Shown here in pieces: positions 1 to 35,897 of a stretch of 35,897 nucleotides of DNA. The notes beneath the pieces are model-generated. The model ran no database searches. It was not told the DNA's origin and was given only the letters and a program-made list of their open reading frames with translations. The translations under genes and the position numbers were made by a program. This stretch comes from a virus, in IMG/VR virus record IMGVR_UViG_3300014911_000017, positions 1-35,897 of that record. One strand, written 5' to 3'. How positions within the stretch are numbered: position 1 is the stretch's first letter; each line of letters begins with the position of its first letter.

Positions 1-123
1 CGATTCCAACATTCGCGGGACACACAGAAGATAATGAAATCTATTTTGTAGATTTGCGCAATTTAAGCGTTTTTGAACCGTGCTATCGATACAAGGCGGA
101 TACGCGACCAGACGAACAGCAAA
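1..123. repeat. Terminal direct repeat, left copy (circular closure)
   Basis: These 123 bases are identical to 35775-35897. The repeat lies inside one open reading frame, which runs off the right end and resumes here in the same frame. This is what a circular assembly cut at an arbitrary point looks like. A true packaging repeat is less likely, because it would sit in the middle of a gene. Confidence 0.93.
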
Positions 124-20690: not shown

Positions 20691-21863
20691 GTGAAAGCAA
20701 TGAACCCGAAAGTAGAAAAATTGATGAATGAATTCCAAAATTACGGTTTGAAGCGGATGACCGCAAAGGGATACGCCGCGCATGTGATAAGGTTCTGCAA
20801 CCGAAACGGAATAACAGAAAATGACCTACTGAATTTACCGCTCGAACAAATAGAAGATTTAACCGAACGATTCATAAAGTCGAACATGCGCAGGTTGAGT
20901 CCGAAAGAACTCAACAATTACTATGCGAGCATCAAAGCGTATCTGGTAATGAAGCGAAAAATAAAGTCGACACGGGAATTTAGACAGATCAAATTCGACG
21001 GTCAAAGCCGCAAGACACGCGACAGAGAAATGATAACACGCGAAATAATGAGACAGGCATGCGACAATACAGATGTGGTCGGAAAACTGGTGCTTACATT
21101 TTACGGCGTAAACGGGCTTAGACCAAGCATTATACCACAACTGAAAGTCGGAAATATCCGTAAAAAGGATATAAAATTTAATGCGGATGGAACAGTCAAG
21201 CTAGCGCCGAAAACGTGGATTTGGATATGGCGCGAATATGAAGGAAATAAGGCGCGAATTGATTTTCCAATAATTTTGACGGATGAACAGCGAAAATGGT
21301 TGGAAGACCATTTAAACCAGAGAATAAGATATGGAGAAGTCATCAACGATGACACGCAATTGCTGGCGATCGGACAAACGGCAGACTGCGTATACAAAAT
21401 CGTCAAGCGACTATTAAGAAAGGTCGGATTTAACGGTCGAACCTATCTCCTGAGACATTACGCATTCAAACAGTTGAAAAGGGCAGTTGAAGATTACGAT
21501 TTTAGAGAATGGCTAATGGGACATAAAGGACGTATAAGCGCCATATACGACCATGAACATTACTTGGACGACCGCGAAATAGAAGAATACAAAATGCAAT
21601 ACGACCAGACAAAGTTGCTCATATATGGAGCAACAACAGAGGAAATGCGACAGGCTGAATTACTAGCTGGATTCGCACGAAACTTAGGCGTAAGCGACGA
21701 CAAAATCGCACAGATACTCAACCTACTGAAAACAGGACAGTTAACGGCGAAACAGTTTGAACAGCGATTAAACCAGATTGTCCAAAAACATCTTGAACAG
21801 CAAATAGAAGATAAGTTTGAAGAGTTGTTCGTGAAACTCAATCGAAAATATAACGGTCAATAA
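20691..21863 (+). CDS. int: Tyrosine recombinase (integrase)
   Basis: This enzyme would insert and excise the viral genome at a host site. The N-terminal 105 residues are a helical core-binding domain (MTAKGYAAHVIRFCNRNG). Catalytic candidates are R144 in NGLRPSIIPQL, R255 in YLLRHYAF, H278 in LMGHKG and Y286 in AIYDH. The usual first histidine of the HxxR box is a tyrosine here. At the C terminus about 90 extra residues form a helical extension (KIAQILNLLKTGQLTAKQFE). GTG at 20691 would give a leaderless transcript; an ATG three codons on is the alternative. Confidence 0.9.
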   Translation: MKAMNPKVEKLMNEFQNYGLKRMTAKGYAAHVIRFCNRNGITENDLLNLPLEQIEDLTERFIKSNMRRLSPKELNNYYASIKAYLVMKRKIKSTREFRQIKFDGQSRKTRDREMITREIMRQACDNTDVVGKLVLTFYGVNGLRPSIIPQLKVGNIRKKDIKFNADGTVKLAPKTWIWIWREYEGNKARIDFPIILTDEQRKWLEDHLNQRIRYGEVINDDTQLLAIGQTADCVYKIVKRLLRKVGFNGRTYLLRHYAFKQLKRAVEDYDFREWLMGHKGRISAIYDHEHYLDDREIEEYKMQYDQTKLLIYGATTEEMRQAELLAGFARNLGVSDDKIAQILNLLKTGQLTAKQFEQRLNQIVQKHLEQQIEDKFEELFVKLNRKYNGQ

Positions 21864-21894: not shown

Positions 21895-21916
21895 ACTATA
21901 ATACACGGTGAAACAA

Positions 21917-22066
21917 ATGAAAAGGAAGGACACAAAAATAATACGCGTGACACCAGAAGTCCACAAACAACTCTTAGAACTCGGAAAGAAGGGAGAAACA
22001 TTCAATGACATTATAGAACGATTGATTGGATTCTATAATACGAACAAAATAATAACGAGGAAGTAA
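21917..22066 (+). CDS. Ribbon-helix-helix regulator, 49 aa
   Basis: This short gene translates as strand TKIIRVTPEVHKQLLELGKK, then GETFNDIIERLIGFYNTNK, the compact form of RHH seen in VapB-type and archaeal viral regulators. The leader contains GGTGAAAC before the ATG. It stands right after the integrase behind the repeated AGCAC operator and may control its own promoter and the two others that share it. Confidence 0.78.
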   Translation: MKRKDTKIIRVTPEVHKQLLELGKKGETFNDIIERLIGFYNTNKIITRK

Positions 22067-22328: not shown

Positions 22329-22710
22329 TAGAATGATGAAAAACTGGCTTTACGGTCTTGCACGAAAAGCAGGATTCAGACGCAACCAAATCAAATCCGA
22401 AATAGTCGTTACATTTCCAGATGGTTCACAAATTAGACCAGATGTAGGAATATACGATAGACACGGTCGATTGCTAATAGCATTAGAAGGTTTTAGAACA
22501 TCAGCAGTTTCACGACGAAAAAAACAATTATCACGAAAATACGGATTCCAAATATTTGAATTCTGTGTAGGCGATTCAAGACGCCACGTTTACCAACGAA
22601 AAATACTCGCCAAAGAATTTTTAGAATGGGTTAAACGAAAAAGACAACAAAATCCAGAAAGACCTTTATGGATTCCGCCTGAAAAAAGCAAAATTTACCG
22701 TGTGCAATAA
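22321..22710 (+). CDS. PD-(D/E)XK nuclease-like protein, 129 aa
   Basis: The ATG follows AAAGGTGATAATTA. The protein is basic with the line QIKSEIVVTFPDGSQIRPDV, GIYDRHGRLLIALEGFR, KKQLSRKYGFQIFEF. This looks like the core of a restriction-type nuclease: helix, PDV, strand with an acidic residue, then helix. The expected lysine of E-x-K is not in place (EGFR), so activity is uncertain. It overlaps the following HExxH gene by 11 bases, so the two are made together. Compare the gene at 34115, where an HExxH domain is fused to a nuclease. Confidence 0.5.
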   Translation: MDDRMMKNWLYGLARKAGFRRNQIKSEIVVTFPDGSQIRPDVGIYDRHGRLLIALEGFRTSAVSRRKKQLSRKYGFQIFEFCVGDSRRHVYQRKILAKEFLEWVKRKRQQNPERPLWIPPEKSKIYRVQ

Positions 22711-23020
22711 ATTGACAATAACATTTACAACTTATAATGAATCCGTTAGAAATCAAATCTTCAAAGATTTTGGAGTGAAATACGAATGGATTAAGAAGAT
22801 AGAAGATCAAACCATCGGATGGGCAAACTTTGAGAAATCGCAAATAGAAATTTATATTGACAGAATTGTAAAGTTTTTAGGAGAAAATAAATTGGAAGAA
22901 ATCAAAATAATATCCGAAATTATTAATGCAGTAACGATTCACGAATTAATTCATTTGATGGGACATATTTTAGCTGAAGACACGACAGATAAATTAACGA
23001 AAATCTTATTAGATTTTTGA
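22700..23020 (+). CDS. Minimal HExxH metallopeptidase-like protein, 106 aa
   Basis: GTG at 22700 lies inside the end of the nuclease-like gene. The motif VTIHELIHLMGH (HExxH at residues 81-85) is a zinc site of metallopeptidases, with a possible third ligand in the following AED. The whole protein is similar to the first 125 residues of the product at 34115: both share a Gly-Trp after T-I/L, IEIYIDR, VTIHEL.H and IL.E followed by a TK..L helix. With 106 residues this is close to the smallest possible form of such an enzyme. The substrate is unknown. Confidence 0.72.
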   Translation: MCNKLTITFTTYNESVRNQIFKDFGVKYEWIKKIEDQTIGWANFEKSQIEIYIDRIVKFLGENKLEEIKIISEIINAVTIHELIHLMGHILAEDTTDKLTKILLDF

Positions 23021-23104
23021 CCTACTGGATTTTCCGCCTCAAATTTTGACCTACTGGATTGCTCCTCGCGAAAAATTTTCGCTCAGAAAATGACCTACTG
23101 GATT
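23018..23104. repeat. Three copies of TGACCTACTGGATT
   Basis: Exact copies lie at 23018-23031, 23047-23060 and 23091-23104, separated by GC-richer spacers. One spacer holds the near-perfect palindrome GCGAAAA-A-TTTTCGC (about 23068-23082). Two further copies lie at 25476 and 25491, on the far side of a block of four genes. No copy was noticed elsewhere in the window. They could be ends of a mobile cassette, binding sites for a regulator or replication iterons. Confidence 0.8.
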
Positions 23105-23142
23105 TCAGGCTAAAAACGGAAATAGACCGCAAAAACGCAATA

Positions 23143-23192
23143 TTTAAATATGACCGTGCAACCTAGTTAAACATGGTGCGAAAAACGCACCT
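23143..23192 (+). promoter_or_regulatory. Promoter and leader hairpin of the accessory cassette
   Basis: The TATA box TTTAAATA (23143-23150) predicts a start near 23173. Directly after this, GGTGCG-AAAAA-CGCACC (23176-23192) makes a perfect six-base hairpin in the leader, followed by GAGGTG as ribosome site. The hairpin may be an operator at the start site or an RNA switch that limits translation. Confidence 0.62.
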
Positions 23193-23215
23193 AAAACGCA
23201 AAGAGGTGTTGAAAC

Positions 23216-23629
23216 GTGAAAACGTATATCATAAACGTTAGAATAAATGAATCCGATTTTGAAGGATGGAGTAAGAAAGAAATCAAAGATTACATTACGA
23301 CGCTCTTAACACGATGCGAAAACAACAGCATAAAAAACGGTTATCCGATAGAAATAGGCGCAATAAAAGACATTGATCAAGGCGTTTATGCGTTCTGGAA
23401 ATACGATATACCTTTTGAAGTTGCTGAATCAGTTCTTAGAAGGCTGAAAATACCATATAAAATATTGACTAGAACCGAAAAACGAAACGATGAATGGGGA
23501 AAAGACGAATGGGGAATAATCCAAGTCAACCCAAACAAGCTAGTTAAATGGTTAGAGCGATTAATAGAGGAAGAAATAGGAAATTATCCGCATTCTGAAC
23601 TTGAAAAACGAATTTTAGGAGAGAATTAA
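23216..23629 (+). CDS. Hypothetical accessory protein, 137 aa
   Basis: The GTG start follows AGAGGTG. The product is alpha/beta and charged: KTYIINVRINESDFEGWSKK, EIKDYITTLLTRCENNSIKN, VYAFWKYDIPFEVAESVLRR, then WGIIQVNPNKLVKWLERLIE. A pattern of strand, helix, strand with conserved tryptophans is visible, but no known family. It is the first gene of a four-gene block enclosed by 14-base repeats and has its own promoter. The sequence is poorer in CGA/CGC codons than the structural genes. Confidence 0.7.
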   Translation: MKTYIINVRINESDFEGWSKKEIKDYITTLLTRCENNSIKNGYPIEIGAIKDIDQGVYAFWKYDIPFEVAESVLRRLKIPYKILTRTEKRNDEWGKDEWGIIQVNPNKLVKWLERLIEEEIGNYPHSELEKRILGEN

Positions 23630-23630
23630 A

Positions 23631-24575
23631 ATGGAAAAAGAAAAAATTGAAAAAGTAAAAGAAATAGTCGATAAATTGCCGATTTCTCCACTTGAAAAAC
23701 AAATAGCATTAATGACAACTGCAATAGGCGGAAATCCCACAAAATTTCTAGTTGAATGCGTAAGCAATGCGGAAACCAAAAAAGCAGAAAAAGAAAATCC
23801 GAAACAACCATATCCAGAGGATTACACGGAAATAGAGCGAGCAATAGCTGAAATGCTAACCGAAAATACAGGCGCGCACATACTTGACTCAGGCAGTATT
23901 TACGGAAGACATTGGGAAAAGAACCGAAAAATCAAGAATTTCCGAAAATTACCACAAGTAGAAGTAACGGTTTGGAAAGATGGAGAAATTGACATTTCAA
24001 TAAACATATTTCACTATTTAACCGCGTTTCTAGAAATTGACGAAACCGCGAAATGGTTGCAGAAATTGTTTGACGAATTTGAGAAACGACCAGAATACGC
24101 TAAAATGTCATGGTTGGGTGTAATGGAAGAATTCGCGGAATACATTGAACAAAACTATCCCGAATTTGAATATGCTGGATCGTGGAATACATACAATTGG
24201 GAAAACCTATTAAGTCAAGTGCTTCAAGGCGTAACGTTACATAAAGGAAATGAGTATAACGCCTATTGGATTCTGCAAATACATAATGGATGTGATGTTA
24301 GAGGCGGATATACTAAACCGCGAATTTTCCATGTGATTGATCGTGATTACGCATTGATGGGAATGGATAGCATACAAGCATGTTGCGAATGCACCCAATT
24401 ATATAGTGATGATTGCGGTTATCATTGGTATGGAGAAAAAGAAAATGAAGACAACAGTTTACCCGAATATTGGAAACCTAAACCCAAAAAACCTAATGCT
24501 GAAAATTGGGAATACAAGCTAGTATGCGAAAAATGCGGAAAAGAAGTTGAATTTTTCGCAAATTTAGACATTTAG
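23631..24575 (+). CDS. Conserved viral protein of unknown role (TENTG..LDSG..YGRHWEKN), 314 aa
   Basis: AGGAGAG precedes the ATG. The segment AIAEMLTENTGAHILDSGSI, YGRHWEKN, FRKLPQVEVTVW is, to my memory, a hallmark of a protein found in many phages without known function. The next part (YNAYWILQIHNGCDVRGGYT, then DYALMGMDSIQACCECTQLY) keeps several aromatic and cysteine residues. The C terminus ends in a CEKCGKEVEFF zinc pair. The protein could be a DNA- or RNA-processing factor, but I cannot assign it. It is the second gene in the repeat-flanked block. Confidence 0.72.
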   Translation: MEKEKIEKVKEIVDKLPISPLEKQIALMTTAIGGNPTKFLVECVSNAETKKAEKENPKQPYPEDYTEIERAIAEMLTENTGAHILDSGSIYGRHWEKNRKIKNFRKLPQVEVTVWKDGEIDISINIFHYLTAFLEIDETAKWLQKLFDEFEKRPEYAKMSWLGVMEEFAEYIEQNYPEFEYAGSWNTYNWENLLSQVLQGVTLHKGNEYNAYWILQIHNGCDVRGGYTKPRIFHVIDRDYALMGMDSIQACCECTQLYSDDCGYHWYGEKENEDNSLPEYWKPKPKKPNAENWEYKLVCEKCGKEVEFFANLDI

Positions 24576-24586
24576 GAGATGATACA

Positions 24587-25279
24587 ATGACATTCAAACC
24601 TAAATGCGGAATATGCGGAAGCGAGTTAATAACCGCGTTTCTTCCTAACGGTTTACGCATTGCGATATGTCCAAACGTGAAAGGAAGAACCGTAAAAATC
24701 GGATTAACAACCAAACAAATAGAGATATGGTGTGATATGCAACCGACAAGCGAGAAAACGGTTAGATTCAGACCAATAGACAAAAATCAAATGCGAGCAT
24801 GGGAAGAATACACAAAAAATAAGGGATTACGCGAAACATTCAACCGAATAGTTTCAAATCGATACTATGATATTTTGAAACGCGAAACATACGAAATAAT
24901 ACCCGAAAACCAATTATTAGAACAAACAAACCTAGCTTTACTCATGGAGTTGCCACTTTTACAACTTCCCAAACTATTCAATTCAGCAATAAAGTTAAGT
25001 AGAGCAATGGGATTGAACCCAATAAAAGGCATAGAAGCAATTTCAAAAGGTATAGGCAGAAGATCATGGATGATATTGGACAACATCGGAATCAAGATTA
25101 AACGCGGATTAAAAGGCGAACAATGGACAAAAGAAGCAATAAACCAAGTATTAACAAAAGCAAATGAGTTGCCAAATCCAACCGAAACGGAAATGGAGAA
25201 ATACATAAAAGACAAAAATGAATTAAATGGATTAATAGAACTAGGTAAAAAATTAGTAGGAGAAAATAAAAATGAATAA
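24587..25279 (+). CDS. Zinc-ribbon plus helical protein, 230 aa
   Basis: AGGAGATGATACA precedes the ATG. The N-terminal 45 residues have CGICG...C and a later single C, which may form a zinc ribbon (KPKCGICGSELITAFLPNGL, RIAICPN). The rest is helical, with YYDILKRETYEIIPENQLLE and AMGLNPIKGIEAISKGIGRR, resembling small DNA-binding helices. A function cannot be named. It is the third gene of the repeat-flanked block and overlaps the following zinc-ribbon gene by eight bases. Confidence 0.68.
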   Translation: MTFKPKCGICGSELITAFLPNGLRIAICPNVKGRTVKIGLTTKQIEIWCDMQPTSEKTVRFRPIDKNQMRAWEEYTKNKGLRETFNRIVSNRYYDILKRETYEIIPENQLLEQTNLALLMELPLLQLPKLFNSAIKLSRAMGLNPIKGIEAISKGIGRRSWMILDNIGIKIKRGLKGEQWTKEAINQVLTKANELPNPTETEMEKYIKDKNELNGLIELGKKLVGENKNE

Positions 25280-25427
25280 AAAGAAAAGTTTAAGAGTGAA
25301 ATGTCGAAAATGCGGAAAAATAGGAGAAACAGAACCATCAACAACGGAAAACGAAAAGCAAATAAGCCCAATAATAATTTATTGCGATAATTGCGAAGAT
25401 TTTACATTAGCTGATATAATTGATTAA
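25272..25427 (+). CDS. Small zinc-ribbon protein, 51 aa
   Basis: The ATG lies within the end of the preceding gene after AGGAG. Two pairs, CRKCGK and CDNCED, separated by 24 residues, make a complete four-cysteine zinc ribbon. The N terminus is strongly basic (MNKKKSLRVK). Such miniature ribbons bind nucleic acid or the basal transcription machinery. It is the last gene of the repeat-flanked block; the stop is followed by pyrimidine-rich DNA that probably ends transcription. Confidence 0.72.
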   Translation: MNKKKSLRVKCRKCGKIGETEPSTTENEKQISPIIIYCDNCEDFTLADIID

Positions 25428-25470
25428 TCCCTTCTTTTTCCGATTTCGCCCGAATCTCCGCCTTTTTTCG
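25428..25470 (+). terminator. T-rich end of the accessory operon
   Basis: CCCTTCTTTTTCC and, a little later, CCTTTTTTCG follow the zinc-ribbon stop. These U-runs would release archaeal RNA polymerase. No clear stem is needed or seen. Confidence 0.45.
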
Positions 25471-25475
25471 CGTTT

Positions 25476-25504
25476 CAACCTACTGGATTTTGACCTACTG
25501 GATT
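25476..25504. repeat. Two further copies of the TGACCTACTGGATT repeat
   Basis: A copy with its first two bases changed (CAACCTACTGGATT, 25476-25489) and an exact copy (25491-25504) lie almost head to tail, one base apart. With the three copies at 23018-23104 they enclose the four genes 23216-25427, all in the same orientation. Confidence 0.8.
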
Positions 25505-25550
25505 CCGCGAAAGCAATAAGCATTATTAAATTATGGTTTTTAATGTTGTT

Positions 25551-25583
25551 CACGCGTGAGAATAACGTTTAAGACGTTATTCT
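25551..25583. repeat. Palindrome CACGCGTG plus 10-base inverted repeat
   Basis: CACGCGTG (25551-25558) is a perfect palindrome. Directly next to it, AGAATAACGT (25559-25568) and ACGTTATTCT (25574-25583) are perfect inverted repeats around TTAAG. They stand at the left of a 414-base stretch (25428-25841) without a gene. The pair could be an operator or part of a replication origin. Confidence 0.6.
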
Positions 25584-25644
25584 TCGCTAAATATTCGACA
25601 TATACATAAAATAATGTTGTTTTGAATCGAACATTTTTCGATTA

Positions 25645-25732
25645 AACACTTACATTTAAAAACACAATATAACACTTAAACGCAACCAAACACAAAATTA
25701 ACATAAAAGTGTGCGTAAGTGTTTTAAAGTGT
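25645..25732. promoter_or_regulatory. Phased AAGTGT boxes upstream of a promoter
   Basis: AAGTGT occurs at 25707, 25717 and 25727, exactly ten bases apart, so all three lie on one face of the helix. Two reverse copies (AACACTTA) stand at 25645 and 25671. The phased array ends about ten bases before the TATA box at 25742. This is the layout of a cooperative activator or repressor site. Confidence 0.65.
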
Positions 25733-25741
25733 TTATGAATA

Positions 25742-25816
25742 GTATATAACGGTTGCTCTCCGCGAAAAACATCGGTGGCTTCGACCACATAACGGATGTG
25801 TGCGTGTGGGAGCAAC
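25742..25816 (+). promoter_or_regulatory. TATA box and three-tier nested inverted repeat
   Basis: GTATATAA (about 25742-25749) is the TATA box. Three stems nest inside each other: GTTGCTC (25752-25758) with GAGCAAC (25810-25816), ACATC (25769-25773) with GATGT (25795-25799), and GTGG (25775-25778) with CCAC (25785-25788). The innermost loop is CTTCGA. With transcription starting near 25770, the inner two stems would be in the leader RNA and the outer one would span the promoter. Confidence 0.58.
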
Positions 25817-25841
25817 ACAACAAAACAGGGGGAATGCAACC

Positions 25842-28077: not shown

Positions 28078-28290
28078 ATGGGAAATGCAAGCGCAACAAA
28101 AACATATTTAACTGTAACCATTGACAAGAAAATTTACCGAGAAATTGAAGATTTACGCGGCGCAATGAAAAGAAGTAATTTCGTCGAAATAATTCTGAAA
28201 TATGGTCTGAAAGAATTTAAAAAACGACATCGGAGAATACCAAAAATTGAACAAAAACCAAACCCAACTCGAAAAACTGAAACGGCTTAG
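28078..28290 (+). CDS. Ribbon-helix-helix regulator, 70 aa
   Basis: The strand TYLTVTIDKKIYREIEDLRG and the helix SNFVEIILKYGLKEFKKR give the RHH pattern. A basic proline-rich tail of about 20 residues follows (RIPKIEQKPNPTRKTETA). It is read from a promoter with the AGCAC operator and may regulate it. The end overlaps the following small gene. Confidence 0.78.
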   Translation: MGNASATKTYLTVTIDKKIYREIEDLRGAMKRSNFVEIILKYGLKEFKKRHRRIPKIEQKPNPTRKTETA

Positions 28291-29113: not shown

Positions 29114-29307
29114 CCCATTCTCACCTCGCTCTCGTCTAAACAGGCTAAAATCTCCTCTAGAAACTCAATTTCGGACGAAATTTGGCGTTTCCACTCTGGA
29201 TTTTCGCTGAATTTCAGCAAATTTTGGCATAAAATCAACTGTTTTTCGAGGTATTTCCGCAATTTTTCAAGCAAATTTGGGGGAATTTGCACGATCATTT
29301 TCGACAC
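29110..29307 (-). CDS. Small coiled-coil protein, 65 aa
   Basis: This frame begins inside the polymerase C-half gene and ends in a four-base overlap with the kinase gene. The product (MIVQIPPNLLEKLRKYLEKQ, LILCQNLLKFSENPEWKRQI, SSEIEFLEEILACLDESEV) is almost entirely helical. It might start like an RHH strand (MIVQIPP). No family is recognised. The tight overlaps speak for a real gene of the replication operon. Confidence 0.62.
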   Translation of the reverse strand: MSKMIVQIPPNLLEKLRKYLEKQLILCQNLLKFSENPEWKRQISSEIEFLEEILACLDESEVRMG

Positions 29308-30419
29308 CTTTTACACATGAATTCATACAATTTCGGTGTGCGCTGTTCAACAAGAGGTTGAATCACGCGTTGGACGACCGAACGAATGCGCTCACGATAA
29401 TAATTGTAGTCGAGCATACGCTCTAATTCCTCACGCTTTTTGACGCCGAGTGGAACATATCCATTCACGGTTTTGACGAAGCGGATGGACTGATCAAACG
29501 CGCCGACCATGCCCAACTGCGCGGCGAGTTGTTTCGCAAGCGCATCGCCCTTATACTCGTCGTAATCCTTTCCCATTTCAATTTCCATAATGAAATTCTG
29601 GAATGGAAAACGCTTCAAATCGTAAAATTCCCGCCAAACATCGTTGATTTTTTCGCCGTTGAACAGGGCGCGAACGAAACGTTCAAGCGCGATGCGGCAG
29701 ATAGGCGGGTGATGACGTCCCTTGAACGCCGAACCTTTGAATATGAGACGATTACCATCTTTAAGGACATAATTTTTGGATGCGTAAACGAGCGCGCCGT
29801 CGAAACGTTCAGTTTCAACACGTAGAAAATGCGCATATTCATACTGTTTAAAGAATTCGTGGATACGGCGGTTAATCTCGTCGGAAATGTCTTCTCCCTG
29901 CGTTAGGAGACCGTCAGTATCCAGTTCAAGCGGTAGGACGTTGTATTCGCGGCAAACGTCGAGAACAATCTTGATTATGTAACGACCAATCGCCGCACAG
30001 ACAACCGCAACCACGAATGAACCGTAACGGGCGAAACGGAGACCGTTATAGCCGTAAAGACTGTTCATGACGATTTTAATGGCGAGTTGACCGCTTTTGT
30101 TTCCCTGCTTCTTGTATGATTCTCGAAGTTTCATTAGCGGTATAAGTTCTTTTCGACTCACCGAATCTTCAACGGCAGTTTCAACGACGAGTTGTCCCAA
30201 CTTTTCATCAGGAATTTCAATTACTCGACCGTTAAAGCGATACTCGCCCGTATACGGTTTACGCTCAATCAGCCTAGTCGATTCAGGCGACAAGTTAAAG
30301 ACTATCATGATAGAAGGATACATCGACTTAAGGTCATACTTGATAATATCACCTAGAAAAAGTCCCTTATTGAAACAGTCGCAGTAAGCGCCCTGATAGA
30401 GTTTAGTGGACATTTTCAC
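29295..30419 (-). CDS. polB: Family-B DNA polymerase, C-terminal half (palm, fingers, thumb)
   Basis: The 374-residue protein starts just before the catalytic palm. Motif A is YDLKSMYPSI (D29), motif B KIVMNSLYGYNG (K115, N119, Y122, G123) and motif C LELDTDGLL (D167, D169). The KxY-like segment SKNYVLKDG follows, then FKGSAFKGR and a short thumb ending in cysteines. It has no exonuclease; this lies in the gene at 31447-32586. The two halves together (379+374) match the length of one archaeal PolB. The start overlaps the methyltransferase gene by 17 bases. Confidence 0.93.
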   Translation of the reverse strand: MKMSTKLYQGAYCDCFNKGLFLGDIIKYDLKSMYPSIMIVFNLSPESTRLIERKPYTGEYRFNGRVIEIPDEKLGQLVVETAVEDSVSRKELIPLMKLRESYKKQGNKSGQLAIKIVMNSLYGYNGLRFARYGSFVVAVVCAAIGRYIIKIVLDVCREYNVLPLELDTDGLLTQGEDISDEINRRIHEFFKQYEYAHFLRVETERFDGALVYASKNYVLKDGNRLIFKGSAFKGRHHPPICRIALERFVRALFNGEKINDVWREFYDLKRFPFQNFIMEIEMGKDYDEYKGDALAKQLAAQLGMVGAFDQSIRFVKTVNGYVPLGVKKREELERMLDYNYYRERIRSVVQRVIQPLVEQRTPKLYEFMCKRCRK

Positions 30420-31254
30420 TTCTCCTGAATATCACGATACAACTTGGGAACGGCGCTGAATTTTTGCCGTCAAACTTTAATCGACCTTTAATGAACCGTA
30501 TCTCATCCGCTTTCATAACGTAATCATGCCACCAGCGAGTGTCGGTGCGACTAGGAATCAAACAGACGACAAGTTCACAGTTGCCTTTCACCTTGCATTC
30601 TTCATACGCCTTTTCCATCCATTTGCCGATTTCGCGACCGTAAGGCGGATTCATAAAGACTCGACCAAACCATGACTGTTTCAACCCATCATCCTCTGGA
30701 GTGAAATATTTTTCACATTTCGCATTTTCTGGAGTCGCATATGGATCAAGAGTGAAGTGGAACTCGGCGTTTAACTGGTCAAAAACTTCCTGCGGAGTCG
30801 AATAGTCAAGACGCATCGAACTAAAATGAACCCTCAAACGAGAAGCCGTGAACAGAGCGGACATGTCAAGCGCTAAATCGTTCAATCTTTCAGCGAGAAC
30901 CTCAACGTCACGACGGGACAGTTCGACGGGACGCGGCGCATGCAACACGACCTTACGTGAATCCATGAAATGACGGCGAATAAGCACGCGAGCGCCATAC
31001 CTATCCTCGAAGAGGACAGTAGGTTTGAATGAGTATTTGGCAGAACCAATGTATCTCAACATTTTACGCTCAAAATCGGTAATAACGCCCTGACCGCCAT
31101 GAAACAGAATGCGCTCGGCAATATAATCGTCGATATATTCTGGAGTATTCGTATGCCACGTTGCAACACAAGCGTCGAAAAGTCGTTTGACTTTATGTTT
31201 CATTTTACAGGTCGAACTATATGGACAAACGAGACAGTCACTCCACTTGACCAA
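30403..31254 (-). CDS. Dam-type DNA N6-adenine methyltransferase
   Basis: The C-terminal half belongs to the phage Dam family: EFHFTLDPYATPENAKCEKY, the catalytic MNPPYG (NPPY at 202-205), then ELVVCLIPSRTDTRWWHDYV, IRFIKGRLKFDG and APFPSCIVIFRR. It would methylate adenine in the viral DNA, against host restriction or to mark new strands. The N-terminal 150 residues are extra, start with a CLVCPYSSTC cysteine cluster that may bind metal, and have no match I recognise. The gene lies between the two halves of the DNA polymerase and overlaps both neighbours. Confidence 0.87.
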   Translation of the reverse strand: MVKWSDCLVCPYSSTCKMKHKVKRLFDACVATWHTNTPEYIDDYIAERILFHGGQGVITDFERKMLRYIGSAKYSFKPTVLFEDRYGARVLIRRHFMDSRKVVLHAPRPVELSRRDVEVLAERLNDLALDMSALFTASRLRVHFSSMRLDYSTPQEVFDQLNAEFHFTLDPYATPENAKCEKYFTPEDDGLKQSWFGRVFMNPPYGREIGKWMEKAYEECKVKGNCELVVCLIPSRTDTRWWHDYVMKADEIRFIKGRLKFDGKNSAPFPSCIVIFRRSENVH

Positions 31255-31450
31255 CCTTATTCACCAACTCCAATTTAGCATATTTGAGACCTTCAAATGT
31301 GACAAATGGATAAACGAAACGAAGCGTTGAAGTGTCAGAAACTGTCTTGTAACGGATAAAAACCTCAACATATTTGGAACGTTCAATTACTTCAACTGCA
31401 ATATCACCACAACAGACCAATATCCTGTCTCTATATTTTTCGACGTTCAA
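31238..31450 (-). CDS. Small protein between polymerase halves, 70 aa
   Basis: The start overlaps the polymerase N-half stop by four bases and the end overlaps the methyltransferase start by 17. The product (RDRILVCCGDIAVEVIERSK, YVEVFIRYKTVSDTSTLRFV) is mostly strands and then a short helix (GLKYAKLELVNKVGQVE), like a small beta-barrel. It might be a bridging subunit for the split polymerase, but this is speculation from position. No family is recognised. Confidence 0.62.
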   Translation of the reverse strand: MNVEKYRDRILVCCGDIAVEVIERSKYVEVFIRYKTVSDTSTLRFVYPFVTFEGLKYAKLELVNKVGQVE

Positions 31451-32586
31451 CTAAACAACACCCCCTTAAACCTGTCGTAATTTGCGCCGTCAGAAACGAT
31501 GCCTCGTTCCTTCATTGCGCGACCATAAACAACGTTGCCGATGTGAGATGGAGAACGGTAAACGATAAAGTCGAGCGGAACACGCAAGAGATACGCGAGG
31601 TTGAGAAGAACGTCGAGATAGTGCATGCCCAACTTATAAGTGACACGAGCGTCCGACAGGCAATACTCATACAACTCGTCTTCACTCAATTTATACATCT
31701 CTGTTCGGTCGACCTCACGGATCAAATCGCGATCGTCAGAGAAGAAGTGACGAGCGACAGTTTTAAGGTCGTGACGCATACCCTGACAGAAGGGATCAAT
31801 GCGAACCTCTTTATAAACGTCCATGCAAATCCGACCGTGTAAATAGACTTCACGCTCACGGCGGAATTTGCCAAACTTTTTCTCGACGATACGCGGTTCA
31901 TCGCCTAAACGACCAAGCGGGAAACGGAGACCGCGAAGATGAGCGCGTTGAAGCGGATACCAATAGTCAAGCGCCGTGCCTGAATAAGTGAATAAAATGT
32001 CGGGATTCTCCCTTTCCACAATATTCACGAACTCATCCAAAATTTCCAGTTCATCACCGACCAGAACACGCTGAACAGAATTCGACCAGACGCCGATTGC
32101 AGTGACAGGATCACGTTTAGGATTAGGAAACTGACCGAGCGAAAACATTTCATCATCGAACGCAAGCGTCTTAAGCGGTTTAGCCTGAGCGTAACTGTGC
32201 GAAAAACCGTAATCAATCGCCAAACGCTCAACAAAACGGACGTCACATTCGAGACTATGGTCGGTGCGCAGATACTGAACCTGCTCAACACCACAAAAAC
32301 ACTTATACAACTTTAGTTGTTTCGACACGTCCGACAACAAGCGTCTAGTCACGAGTTCGCAGGTGCGGGTGACAGGTTCAAAATCGTAAAAGTAGGGAAA
32401 GGTCGGCGCTGGAACGATGTATCGCTCTCCGCCCGTCAACCAGCAGTCCAGCATGCGACCGCGCAACGGACGAACAATGAGTAAACAATTTTTTTCCTTT
32501 TTGTAGGGGGGAGAGAGGGACGCGCATAAATCTTTACCATTATATCGAGAGTGTGCTAATATATCATATATATTTGTGGTTGTCAT
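31447..32586 (-). CDS. polB: Family-B DNA polymerase, N-terminal half (exonuclease)
   Basis: This 379-residue protein carries the N-terminal and 3'-5' exonuclease domains: Exo I LAFDDE (D144, E146), Exo II YSGTALD (D207) and Exo III YCLSD (Y308, D312). All catalytic acids are present, so proofreading should work. It stops at a segment like YDRFKGVLFS, exactly where an unsplit enzyme reaches the YxGG motif before palm motif A; no palm motif remains. GGAGAGAGAAGGA before the ATG is a very strong ribosome site. It overlaps the ATPase gene by four bases. Confidence 0.9.
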   Translation of the reverse strand: MTTTNIYDILAHSRYNGKDLCASLSPPYKKEKNCLLIVRPLRGRMLDCWLTGGERYIVPAPTFPYFYDFEPVTRTCELVTRRLLSDVSKQLKLYKCFCGVEQVQYLRTDHSLECDVRFVERLAIDYGFSHSYAQAKPLKTLAFDDEMFSLGQFPNPKRDPVTAIGVWSNSVQRVLVGDELEILDEFVNIVERENPDILFTYSGTALDYWYPLQRAHLRGLRFPLGRLGDEPRIVEKKFGKFRREREVYLHGRICMDVYKEVRIDPFCQGMRHDLKTVARHFFSDDRDLIREVDRTEMYKLSEDELYEYCLSDARVTYKLGMHYLDVLLNLAYLLRVPLDFIVYRSPSHIGNVVYGRAMKERGIVSDGANYDRFKGVLFS

Positions 32587-33917: not shown

Positions 33918-33947
33918 AGCTGTTCACGCTTTTAGTAGAAACACTCA

Positions 33948-34111
33948 TATATAAATAAAGTGTCAAAATTACACTTTTCCAACATGTAAAGTGTCCAATT
34001 GTCACTTTGTGACTTTTTCACTTTTTGACACATATGCACTTTCCATCTTTCCATTTTTCACTTTGTCACTTTTGGAATGTGTGAACATCATTTAAATACT
34101 CGAAAAGTGTT
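33948..34111. promoter_or_regulatory. Bidirectional control region with nine CACTTT/AAAGTG boxes
   Basis: The TATA box of the leftward operon is TATATAAA (33948-33955), about 35 bases from the ATPase start. The rightward box is TTTAAATA (34091-34098), close to the ATG at 34115, so that mRNA may begin at or near the start codon, perhaps using GTG 34124. Between them the six-base word CACTTT or its complement occurs nine times. Three arrangements are inverted pairs: AAAGTGT/ACACTTT at 33957-33977, AAAGTG/CACTTT at 33988-34008, and GTCAC/GTGAC at 34001-34013. This can be operator, origin or both. Confidence 0.72.
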
Positions 34112-34114
34112 TTT

Positions 34115-35245
34115 ATGGCACGAGTGAAAAATTTGGACGCGAAAGAAGCATTGCATAAATTCAGGTTCATCGATTTCGTGTTCAGCGAGGAGTCATGGCG
34201 GAAAATACTGCGTAAGGCTTATGGATTCGACAGGTTGCCCGACGACGAAACGCTTGGATGGTGTCTATACTTCATCAAAAAGGAAATGCCCGACATTGAA
34301 ATCTACATCGACAGGTTAGCGCGTGCAGTCGCGTATGAAATCAAAGAGCAAGGTAAGGAACTGACCGAAGACGTTTTTATGAGGGCGATGATCGACGTTT
34401 TAAACGAGGTCACCATACATGAACTCTGCCATAAAATCGGCGGAATACTAAACGAGGAACTGGTTGAGCGGATGACCAAGAGCATGTTAGCGGAAGCCTG
34501 CATGACATGGCATTACATTCCCTGTCCAAAACTTCAAAAAATGGTTACATGGTTGGAATGCTTGAAATGTAAAGATTCAGAGAAGCATCCGTCCTGTCCG
34601 CTTCAGCGTATTCGGGAAGACGCATTCAAATATAAATATGAACCCAACAAGTATCATGTTAGCGAATTAATCTTTCCACGATACGCATATTACAACCGCA
34701 AATACAAATACGCGATGAGTTGGAACGAATACTGGGACTTATTTTATGGTAAAGCGCTGGGCGCATACATCGAATCATTATATGCACGTGACAGGTCGGA
34801 AATGGAAGTTGCGGTGCAACTAGGAGATTACACGGTTTATGGTCACGCTGACCTAGTTGATGACAAAGAGTTGAAACTCTACGAAATCAAATATTACTAC
34901 GCTCTCAGACACGTCTATAAATCCAAAAAGGCGAAACCTGAACATGTTTTACAGGCGCAGGCTTATTATTCGCTTGGACTCAGAAGCCGACCAGATGTTT
35001 TTAAAAACATTACGGGAATCAAGGTTCTATATTTCAGCAAGACGCGAGAACGAAACGTTCCAAGATACGTCGAAATGGACGTCGAAATGAAGGACATAAT
35101 GGACTGGATCGAAAAACAGGCTAGAATCCTGCATGAAGCGATAAAAAACGATGCACCGCCTAAATGCCGATGTCCAGAATGGAAATGTAAGTATTGCCCG
35201 TTTAAAATGTGTAAATATCATCCGAATTATGGTGAACAACAATGA
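34115..35245 (+). CDS. HExxH metallopeptidase domain fused to Cas4-like nuclease
   Basis: Residues 1-125 match the stand-alone HExxH protein at 22700 (VTIHELCHKIGG, HExxH at 102-106). Residues 129-161 hold five cysteines (129, 137, 149, 152, 161). From residue 180 a RecB/Cas4-type nuclease follows: HVSELIFPRYAYYNRKY, GHADLVDD (D246), LYEIKY (E257, K259) and VLQAQAYYSLG. It ends in CRCPEWKCKYCPFKMC (351-366), like the iron-sulphur cysteines of Cas4. The cysteine normally before PR is phenylalanine here. It may process DNA ends, with the peptidase acting on a bound protein; the substrate is unknown. Confidence 0.82.
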   Translation: MARVKNLDAKEALHKFRFIDFVFSEESWRKILRKAYGFDRLPDDETLGWCLYFIKKEMPDIEIYIDRLARAVAYEIKEQGKELTEDVFMRAMIDVLNEVTIHELCHKIGGILNEELVERMTKSMLAEACMTWHYIPCPKLQKMVTWLECLKCKDSEKHPSCPLQRIREDAFKYKYEPNKYHVSELIFPRYAYYNRKYKYAMSWNEYWDLFYGKALGAYIESLYARDRSEMEVAVQLGDYTVYGHADLVDDKELKLYEIKYYYALRHVYKSKKAKPEHVLQAQAYYSLGLRSRPDVFKNITGIKVLYFSKTRERNVPRYVEMDVEMKDIMDWIEKQARILHEAIKNDAPPKCRCPEWKCKYCPFKMCKYHPNYGEQQ

Positions 35246-35427: not shown

Positions 35428-35897
35428 AAAATACTACGAAAAAGCAAGTCAACTTGCACGCGAGAACTACAAGTTCGGTCAAAAATTCGAGTATCGAGTC
35501 ATGCGCTATCTTAGGAAGCGCGGCTTCCATGTAATGCGTCGATTCGGCAGTCACGGCGAATACGTCTGCCTAGAATGCGGACATAGATGTAAAAGAACCG
35601 CAAAGAAATGTCCAAAATGCGGTGCGACACCCCAAAAGATTCCGCTGGACTTGACCGCATTCAAAAACGGCAACTATTACATGATAACCTGTAAAGCGTC
35701 GAAACGTCGCGGAACAACGTGGATGGACGATCCCTACTACATGAACCTCGTCAAATACGCCGAAATGTATGATGCGATTCCAACATTCGCGGGACACACA
35801 GAAGATAATGAAATCTATTTTGTAGATTTGCGCAATTTAAGCGTTTTTGAACCGTGCTATCGATACAAGGCGGATACGCGACCAGACGAACAGCAAA
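35420..35897 (+). CDS. hjc: Hjc-like Holliday junction resolvase with zinc-ribbon insert (continues at left end)
   Basis: The start is GTG at 35420; the gene continues at base 1. The opening GQKFEYRVMRYLRKRGFHVM matches Hjc, with catalytic E24, then RRFGSHG. A zinc ribbon (C50, C53, C57, C64, C67) is inserted before IPLDLTAFKNGN with catalytic D77. The next strand reads MITCKASK. Hjc has E-x-K here, but this protein has T-C-K, so one catalytic acid is missing while K92 remains. Hjc cuts four-way DNA junctions left by recombination or replication before packaging. Activity is uncertain because of the lost acid. Confidence 0.82.
   Translation, partial: MSKKYYEKASQLARENYKFGQKFEYRVMRYLRKRGFHVMRRFGSHGEYVCLECGHRCKRTAKKCPKCGATPQKIPLDLTAFKNGNYYMITCKASKRRGTTWMDDPYYMNLVKYAEMYDAIPTFAGHTEDNEIYFVDLRNLSVFEPCYRYKADTRPDEQQ
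35775..35897. repeat. Terminal direct repeat, right copy
   Basis: This stretch is identical to bases 1-123. Removing one copy closes the circle at about 35,774 bp and restores the complete resolvase gene. Confidence 0.93.

Follow-up and report, generated by a model that had tools for sequence, protein, structure and literature searches.

A short direct repeat in five copies borders a four-gene operon in a tailed virus of a probably archaeal host

We found that a short repeat occurs in five copies on the two sides of a four-gene block in a viral genome of 35,897 bases (IMG/VR record IMGVR_UViG_3300014911_000017; this whole stretch is called the window below). The five-copy observation is real. 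As the leading reading, we tentatively suggest that the 14-base repeats are asymmetric protein-binding control sites, of the operator or a stoperator-like type, at the borders of what may be an ordinary accessory ('moron'-type) operon inside an AT-rich variable zone. This reading is favoured because of the position of the sites before a TATA box, their co-orientation, their asymmetry, and the parallels with the sites of F55 and with stoperators. A regulatory role appears somewhat more likely than a mobile cassette.

The repeat and the operon between its copies

The 12-base core ACCTACTGGATT starts at positions 23020, 23049, 23093, 25478 and 25493, always on the + strand, and has no further exact copy elsewhere in the window. 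The 14-mer TGACCTACTGGATT is exact at 23018, 23047, 23091 and 25491, and the fifth copy, at 25476, carries CA in place of TG at its start. The original observation of five copies in the same orientation, exact over 14 bases with one exception, three of them before and two after the block, was borne out by the coordinates. The region contains the following features.

22700..23020, + strand: SprT-like zincin ORF (HELIHLMGH; Pfam SprT-like, E 9e-4, below the cut-off)
23018..23031, + strand: repeat copy 1, TGACCTACTGGATT, exact match
23047..23060, + strand: repeat copy 2, TGACCTACTGGATT, exact match
23068..23082, no strand: palindrome GCGAAAAATTTTCGC between copies 2 and 3, read from the sequence
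23091..23104, + strand: repeat copy 3, TGACCTACTGGATT, exact match
23141..23151, + strand: archaeal-type TATA box TATTTAAATAT, putative block promoter (rank 22 genome-wide with a small matrix)
23175..23191, + strand: 17-base leader hairpin GGTGCG-AAAAA-CGCACC, read from the sequence and present in the predicted fold
23216..23629, + strand: P0001, block gene 1, 137 aa, orphan (database searches without a match)
23631..24575, + strand: P0002, block gene 2, 314 aa, phrog_11344 (PHROG E 2.8e-36)
24587..25279, + strand: P0003, block gene 3, 230 aa, orphan with a zinc-ribbon-like N-terminus (CxxC sequence motif)
25272..25427, + strand: P0004, block gene 4, 51 aa, zinc-ribbon-like protein (weak zinc-ribbon family matches only)
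25428..25472, + strand: T-rich stretch CTTCTTTTTCC...CCTTTTTTCG, putative archaeal terminator of the block, read from the sequence
25476..25489, + strand: repeat copy 4, CAACCTACTGGATT, approximate match with two mismatches at the 5' end
25491..25504, + strand: repeat copy 5, TGACCTACTGGATT, exact match
25559..25583, no strand: perfect 10-bp inverted repeat AGAATAACGT/ACGTTATTCT, 3' of the repeats

Three copies thus lie 5' of the four-gene operon (23216-25427) and two lie 3' of it. In 200 order-2 Markov surrogate genomes, the most frequent 12-mer reached four copies at most, and did so in 3 of the 200; a 12-mer in five copies was absent from all 200 surrogates of the same composition. Matches to the repeat with up to three mismatches elsewhere (20822, 5473, 26430 and 34849) fall within coding sequence, and their number is near the chance expectation. 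The repeat is asymmetric, and each of its five copies points in the direction of transcription. Copy 1 overlaps the end of a gene, as its TGA serves as stop codon to ORF 22700-23020; this stop codon excepted, the repeat sequence is confined to the two gaps bordering the operon. The start-to-start spacings are 15, 29 and 44 bases, with copies 4 and 5 forming a tandem 15-base duplication. The core is exact over 12 bases in the five copies, and the DNA between the copies is unrelated. When the repeat cores were masked, the upstream and downstream flanks were no more alike than shuffles (p 0.76), and a longer degenerate repeat around the cores was considered and rejected as not significant.

The four block genes are separated by 1, 11 and -8 bases, and a purine-rich ribosome-binding site (AGAGG or AGGAG) precedes each of them; they therefore most likely form one operon. 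The TATA box TATTTAAATAT, which is of convincing archaeal type, follows the end of copy 3 by 36 bp and was ranked with a small promoter matrix built from five other putative promoters of the same virus. Together with the hairpin at 23175-23191, it agrees with the prediction that the co-directed block has its own promoter and leader hairpin. T-rich stretches such as that at the end of the block are typical of archaeal terminators. Searches of Pfam, PHROGs, NCBIfam, PADLOC and the phage records gave nothing for P0001, a search for relatives of P0003 returned none, and the single-sequence model of P0003 (pLDDT 43) was too poor to use. Neither a recombinase nor an initiator or partition protein was recognised within the block.

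The virus and the surroundings of the operon

The first and last 123 bases of the window (1-123 and 35775-35897) form an exact terminal direct repeat, which shows the record to be a complete genome of about 35.8 kb, either circular or terminally redundant. Its genes are those of a tailed virus. They encode a large terminase, a portal protein, and tail tube and tape-measure-like proteins, along with a two-part family B DNA polymerase and an MCM/AAA-like protein that contains an Lrs14/Sta1-like HTH. The polymerase is split on the - strand (29295-32586) into an exonuclease piece at 31447-32586 and a polymerase piece at 29295-30419; a Dam methylase gene and a small ORF separate the two. Since the large terminase has its best full-length match in Halogranum virus HGTV-1, and in view of the HTH matches and the TATA-like promoters, the host is probably archaeal. 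No close relatives of the virus were found in IMG/VR, GTDB or the phage records, and exact-peptide scans with the large terminase, the MCM-like protein, PolB, the integrase, P0003 and the DUF6582-like protein yielded no true relatives; L012 was rejected as a relative, having only a short motif in common. A scan of IMG/VR for two close copies of ACCTACTGGATT returned collagen-like coding repeats only, and the paired matches in L006 and L007 were rejected as such.

The GC content falls from about 42% to 31-38% across 22-28.5 kb, far past the block ends. In size-matched comparisons, the codon usage distance of the block is 6.75 to the right-hand genes and 7.1 to itself, with 8.0 to the structural genes and 10.4 to the replication genes. 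Because the AT-rich zone outruns the block, whose codon usage matches that of the genes to its right, the repeats do not coincide with a compositional edge, nor does the end of the last copy at 25504. An inserted cassette would be expected to differ from both flanks, and the block shares its codon usage with the genes to its right. The claim that the block genes are unlike the rest of the virus therefore holds in part only, as the AT-richness, too, continues to about 28.5 kb.

ORF 22700-23020 is paralogous to the N-terminal region of 34115-35245 (33% over 111 aa); the SprT-like zincin domain occurs alone in the former and fused to a Cas4-like nuclease domain in the latter. Truncation of the SprT-like gene by the block was not supported, as the homology to the paralogue runs to the end of the domain, two codons short of the stop codon. 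Two small genes encode a VapB-antitoxin-like (RHH-type) protein (21908-22066; E 2e-5, just below the cut-off) and an RHH-like protein (28078-28290). A long leader hairpin, GTTGCTCTCC..GGGAGCAAC, lies at 25752-25815 before gene 25842. The divergent gap 33918-34114, between the MCM/AAA-like gene and the SprT plus Cas4-like nuclease gene, holds roughly a dozen CACTTT/AAAGTG-like motifs and is a candidate origin or control region. The element CCAGACA(N6)TTCYGAACTAT is common to about 20604, 5' of the integrase gene, and about 27340, in the 27.3-kb gap. The Rfam search gave no matches.

The P0002 family in other viruses

By its sequence match, P0002 is assigned to the widespread tailed-phage accessory family phrog_11344, whose conserved motifs are TGxHxLDSGG, NTYN and HxGxDxRGGYT. 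Its relatives occur in Mycobacterium, Gordonia and Erythrobacter phages, and in Saintus the relative (gp90, with a homologous core of about 36% identity) adjoins an annotated anti-restriction gene. Compared with most of the family, P0002 is extended at its N-terminus by a helical part of about 65 residues. The AlphaFold model of P0002 is confident (pLDDT 85), and a fold search with it against the PDB gave no match; its widespread phage family thus combines a confidently predicted fold with the lack of a solved relative.

An alignment-based scan of IMG/VR recovered 140 relatives of P0002, of which 80 were examined as loci. In these 80 loci, no relatives of P0001, P0003 or P0004 were found near the P0002 relatives, the repeat was present within one mismatch in none, and the few matches with two mismatches were single and scattered. 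Short repeats bridge the P0002-family gene in 26 of 48 distinct loci; for control positions within these loci the figure is 81 of 339, an imperfect control since accessory regions hold more intergenic space. The inspected bridging repeats often lie at gene starts or ends and resemble promoters (CTTGACGAATCAC in L014), leaders including the start codon (L064, L073 and L084) or terminators (L059). The P0002-family loci mostly have their own repeat per virus, and a virus-specific regulatory repeat is therefore the ordinary expectation. In phages with a P0002 relative (L086 and L089), the palindromic repeat AGTGTCTTCGAAGACAC also occurs in many copies at gene boundaries.

Control sites and competing explanations

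If the 14-mers are control sites, a DNA-binding protein would occupy them in the two gaps bordering one accessory operon. The three sites 5' of the TATA box would control transcription of the block, by activation or by repression via cooperative binding, and the two sites past the T-rich end may regulate transcription that runs on into the following unit, or shield that unit from it, like operators plus stoperators; both the binding and the direction of its effect on transcription are what we infer. The small RHH-like proteins at 21908-22066 and 28078-28290 are candidate regulators. In favour of operators, the short asymmetric sites are aligned with transcription in intergenic gaps, with copy 1 overlapping a stop codon, and further repeated or dyad elements occur between genes of the virus, close to promoters (AAACACTTAC/GTAAGTGTTT at 25.64-25.72 kb, CACTTT/AAAGTG at 33.9-34.1 kb, and CCAGACA..GAACTAT at about 20.6 and 27.3 kb). 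Against them, the spacing to the nearest TATA-like box is unequal at the two ends, no copy stands at any other promoter of the virus, so that the regulator would serve a single operon, and a boundary repeat would equally enclose a whole operon from both sides. Near copies 4 and 5, candidate promoters are weak, the best being at 25534 (genome rank 225).

The block may instead have been gained or lost via recombination or slippage between short direct repeats, with an empty site keeping at least one copy, which we regard as somewhat less likely. The operon is self-contained, having a promoter and a T-rich end of its own, and the copies do mark its two ends exactly, as direct repeats on both sides of a cassette should; recombination of any upstream copy with copy 5 would preserve the stop codon of ORF 22700-23020, and LRRHood and the SH1/PH1 haloviruses offer published parallels (PMC3029335, PMC3622292). 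However, the repeats come without a compositional edge, the block being as close in codon usage to the right-hand genes as to itself, the masked flanks share no likeness beyond that of shuffles, and five copies at such spacings exceed the needs of a simple insertion boundary. Furthermore, the same gene set and repeats did not recur elsewhere: the about 80 P0002 loci lack both the other three genes and the repeat. No recombinase was recognised in the block either, and none of the findings shows the mobility that cassette ends would imply. A modular exchange slot of an archaeal tailed virus family, in which accessory operons are swapped between repeat clusters that double as operators of the resident operon, seems quite unlikely. 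Of the three options originally offered (cassette ends, exchange sites or operators), putative operators fit the position upstream of the TATA box and the co-directed orientation, and mobility was not seen.

The copies could also be functionless remnants of tandem duplication and slippage, as the duplication of copies 4 and 5 and spacings near multiples of 14.6 would allow, but this is improbable given a core kept exact in five copies amid unrelated DNA. Slightly less probable still is a role as replication-origin iterons or as a partition site, with the operon inside or beside it. Although the clustered direct repeats adjoin an AT-rich, strongly structured gap of 414 bp (25428-25841) whose predicted folding is far stronger than that of shuffles (z -4.9), the two clusters are separated by 2.4 kb that contain genes, the block has no recognised initiator or partition protein, and the gap at 33918-34114, adjoining replication genes, is a more repeat-rich origin candidate. 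Integrase arm sites are short direct repeats flanking a core, and a tyrosine-recombinase-like integrase is encoded 1.2 kb upstream (20691-21863; Pfam E 2e-4, below the cut-off). That the copies are its arm-type sites, as part of an attachment site, is nevertheless very unlikely, as a separation of 2.4 kb with four genes is unlike a normal attP of a few hundred bases, and the region yielded neither a tRNA nor a tRNA-like fragment.

As operators, the repeats would give an uncultured archaeal virus a small regulon that can be tested; as exchange boundaries, they would clearly show, for an archaeal virus, an accessory operon carried by short boundary repeats, as LRRHood does for phages. Either reading marks the location of the variable genes of the virus.

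Among known systems, LRRHood genes 43-46 are likewise a four-gene accessory segment bracketed by direct repeats: 1.35 kb lie between 29-bp repeats, of which Cali has one copy (PMC3029335). There, however, one repeat stands on each side and single-copy relatives show gain or loss, whereas here the repeat has 14 bp and 3 + 2 copies, and no relatives were found. In the SH1/PH1 haloviruses, repeat-mediated deletions occur at short repeats of about 5-10 bp (PMC3622292). The RHH lysogeny regulator F55 of the archaeal virus SSV1 binds tandem repeats at early promoters (PMC5569661), comparable to the short tandem direct repeats near a promoter and the small RHH-like genes of the present virus; the F55 sites overlap the BRE or the transcription start at several promoters, whereas ours are found before a single TATA box and past the end of the operon. 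In cluster A mycobacteriophages, the stoperators, which are asymmetric 13-mers, stand between genes and follow the direction of transcription (PMC9283540, PMC6550527), and the present sites resemble them in length (13 to 14 bp), asymmetry, intergenic position and alignment. Stoperators in the strict sense number more than 20 genome-wide, whereas the five copies described here occupy the two gaps that border one operon.
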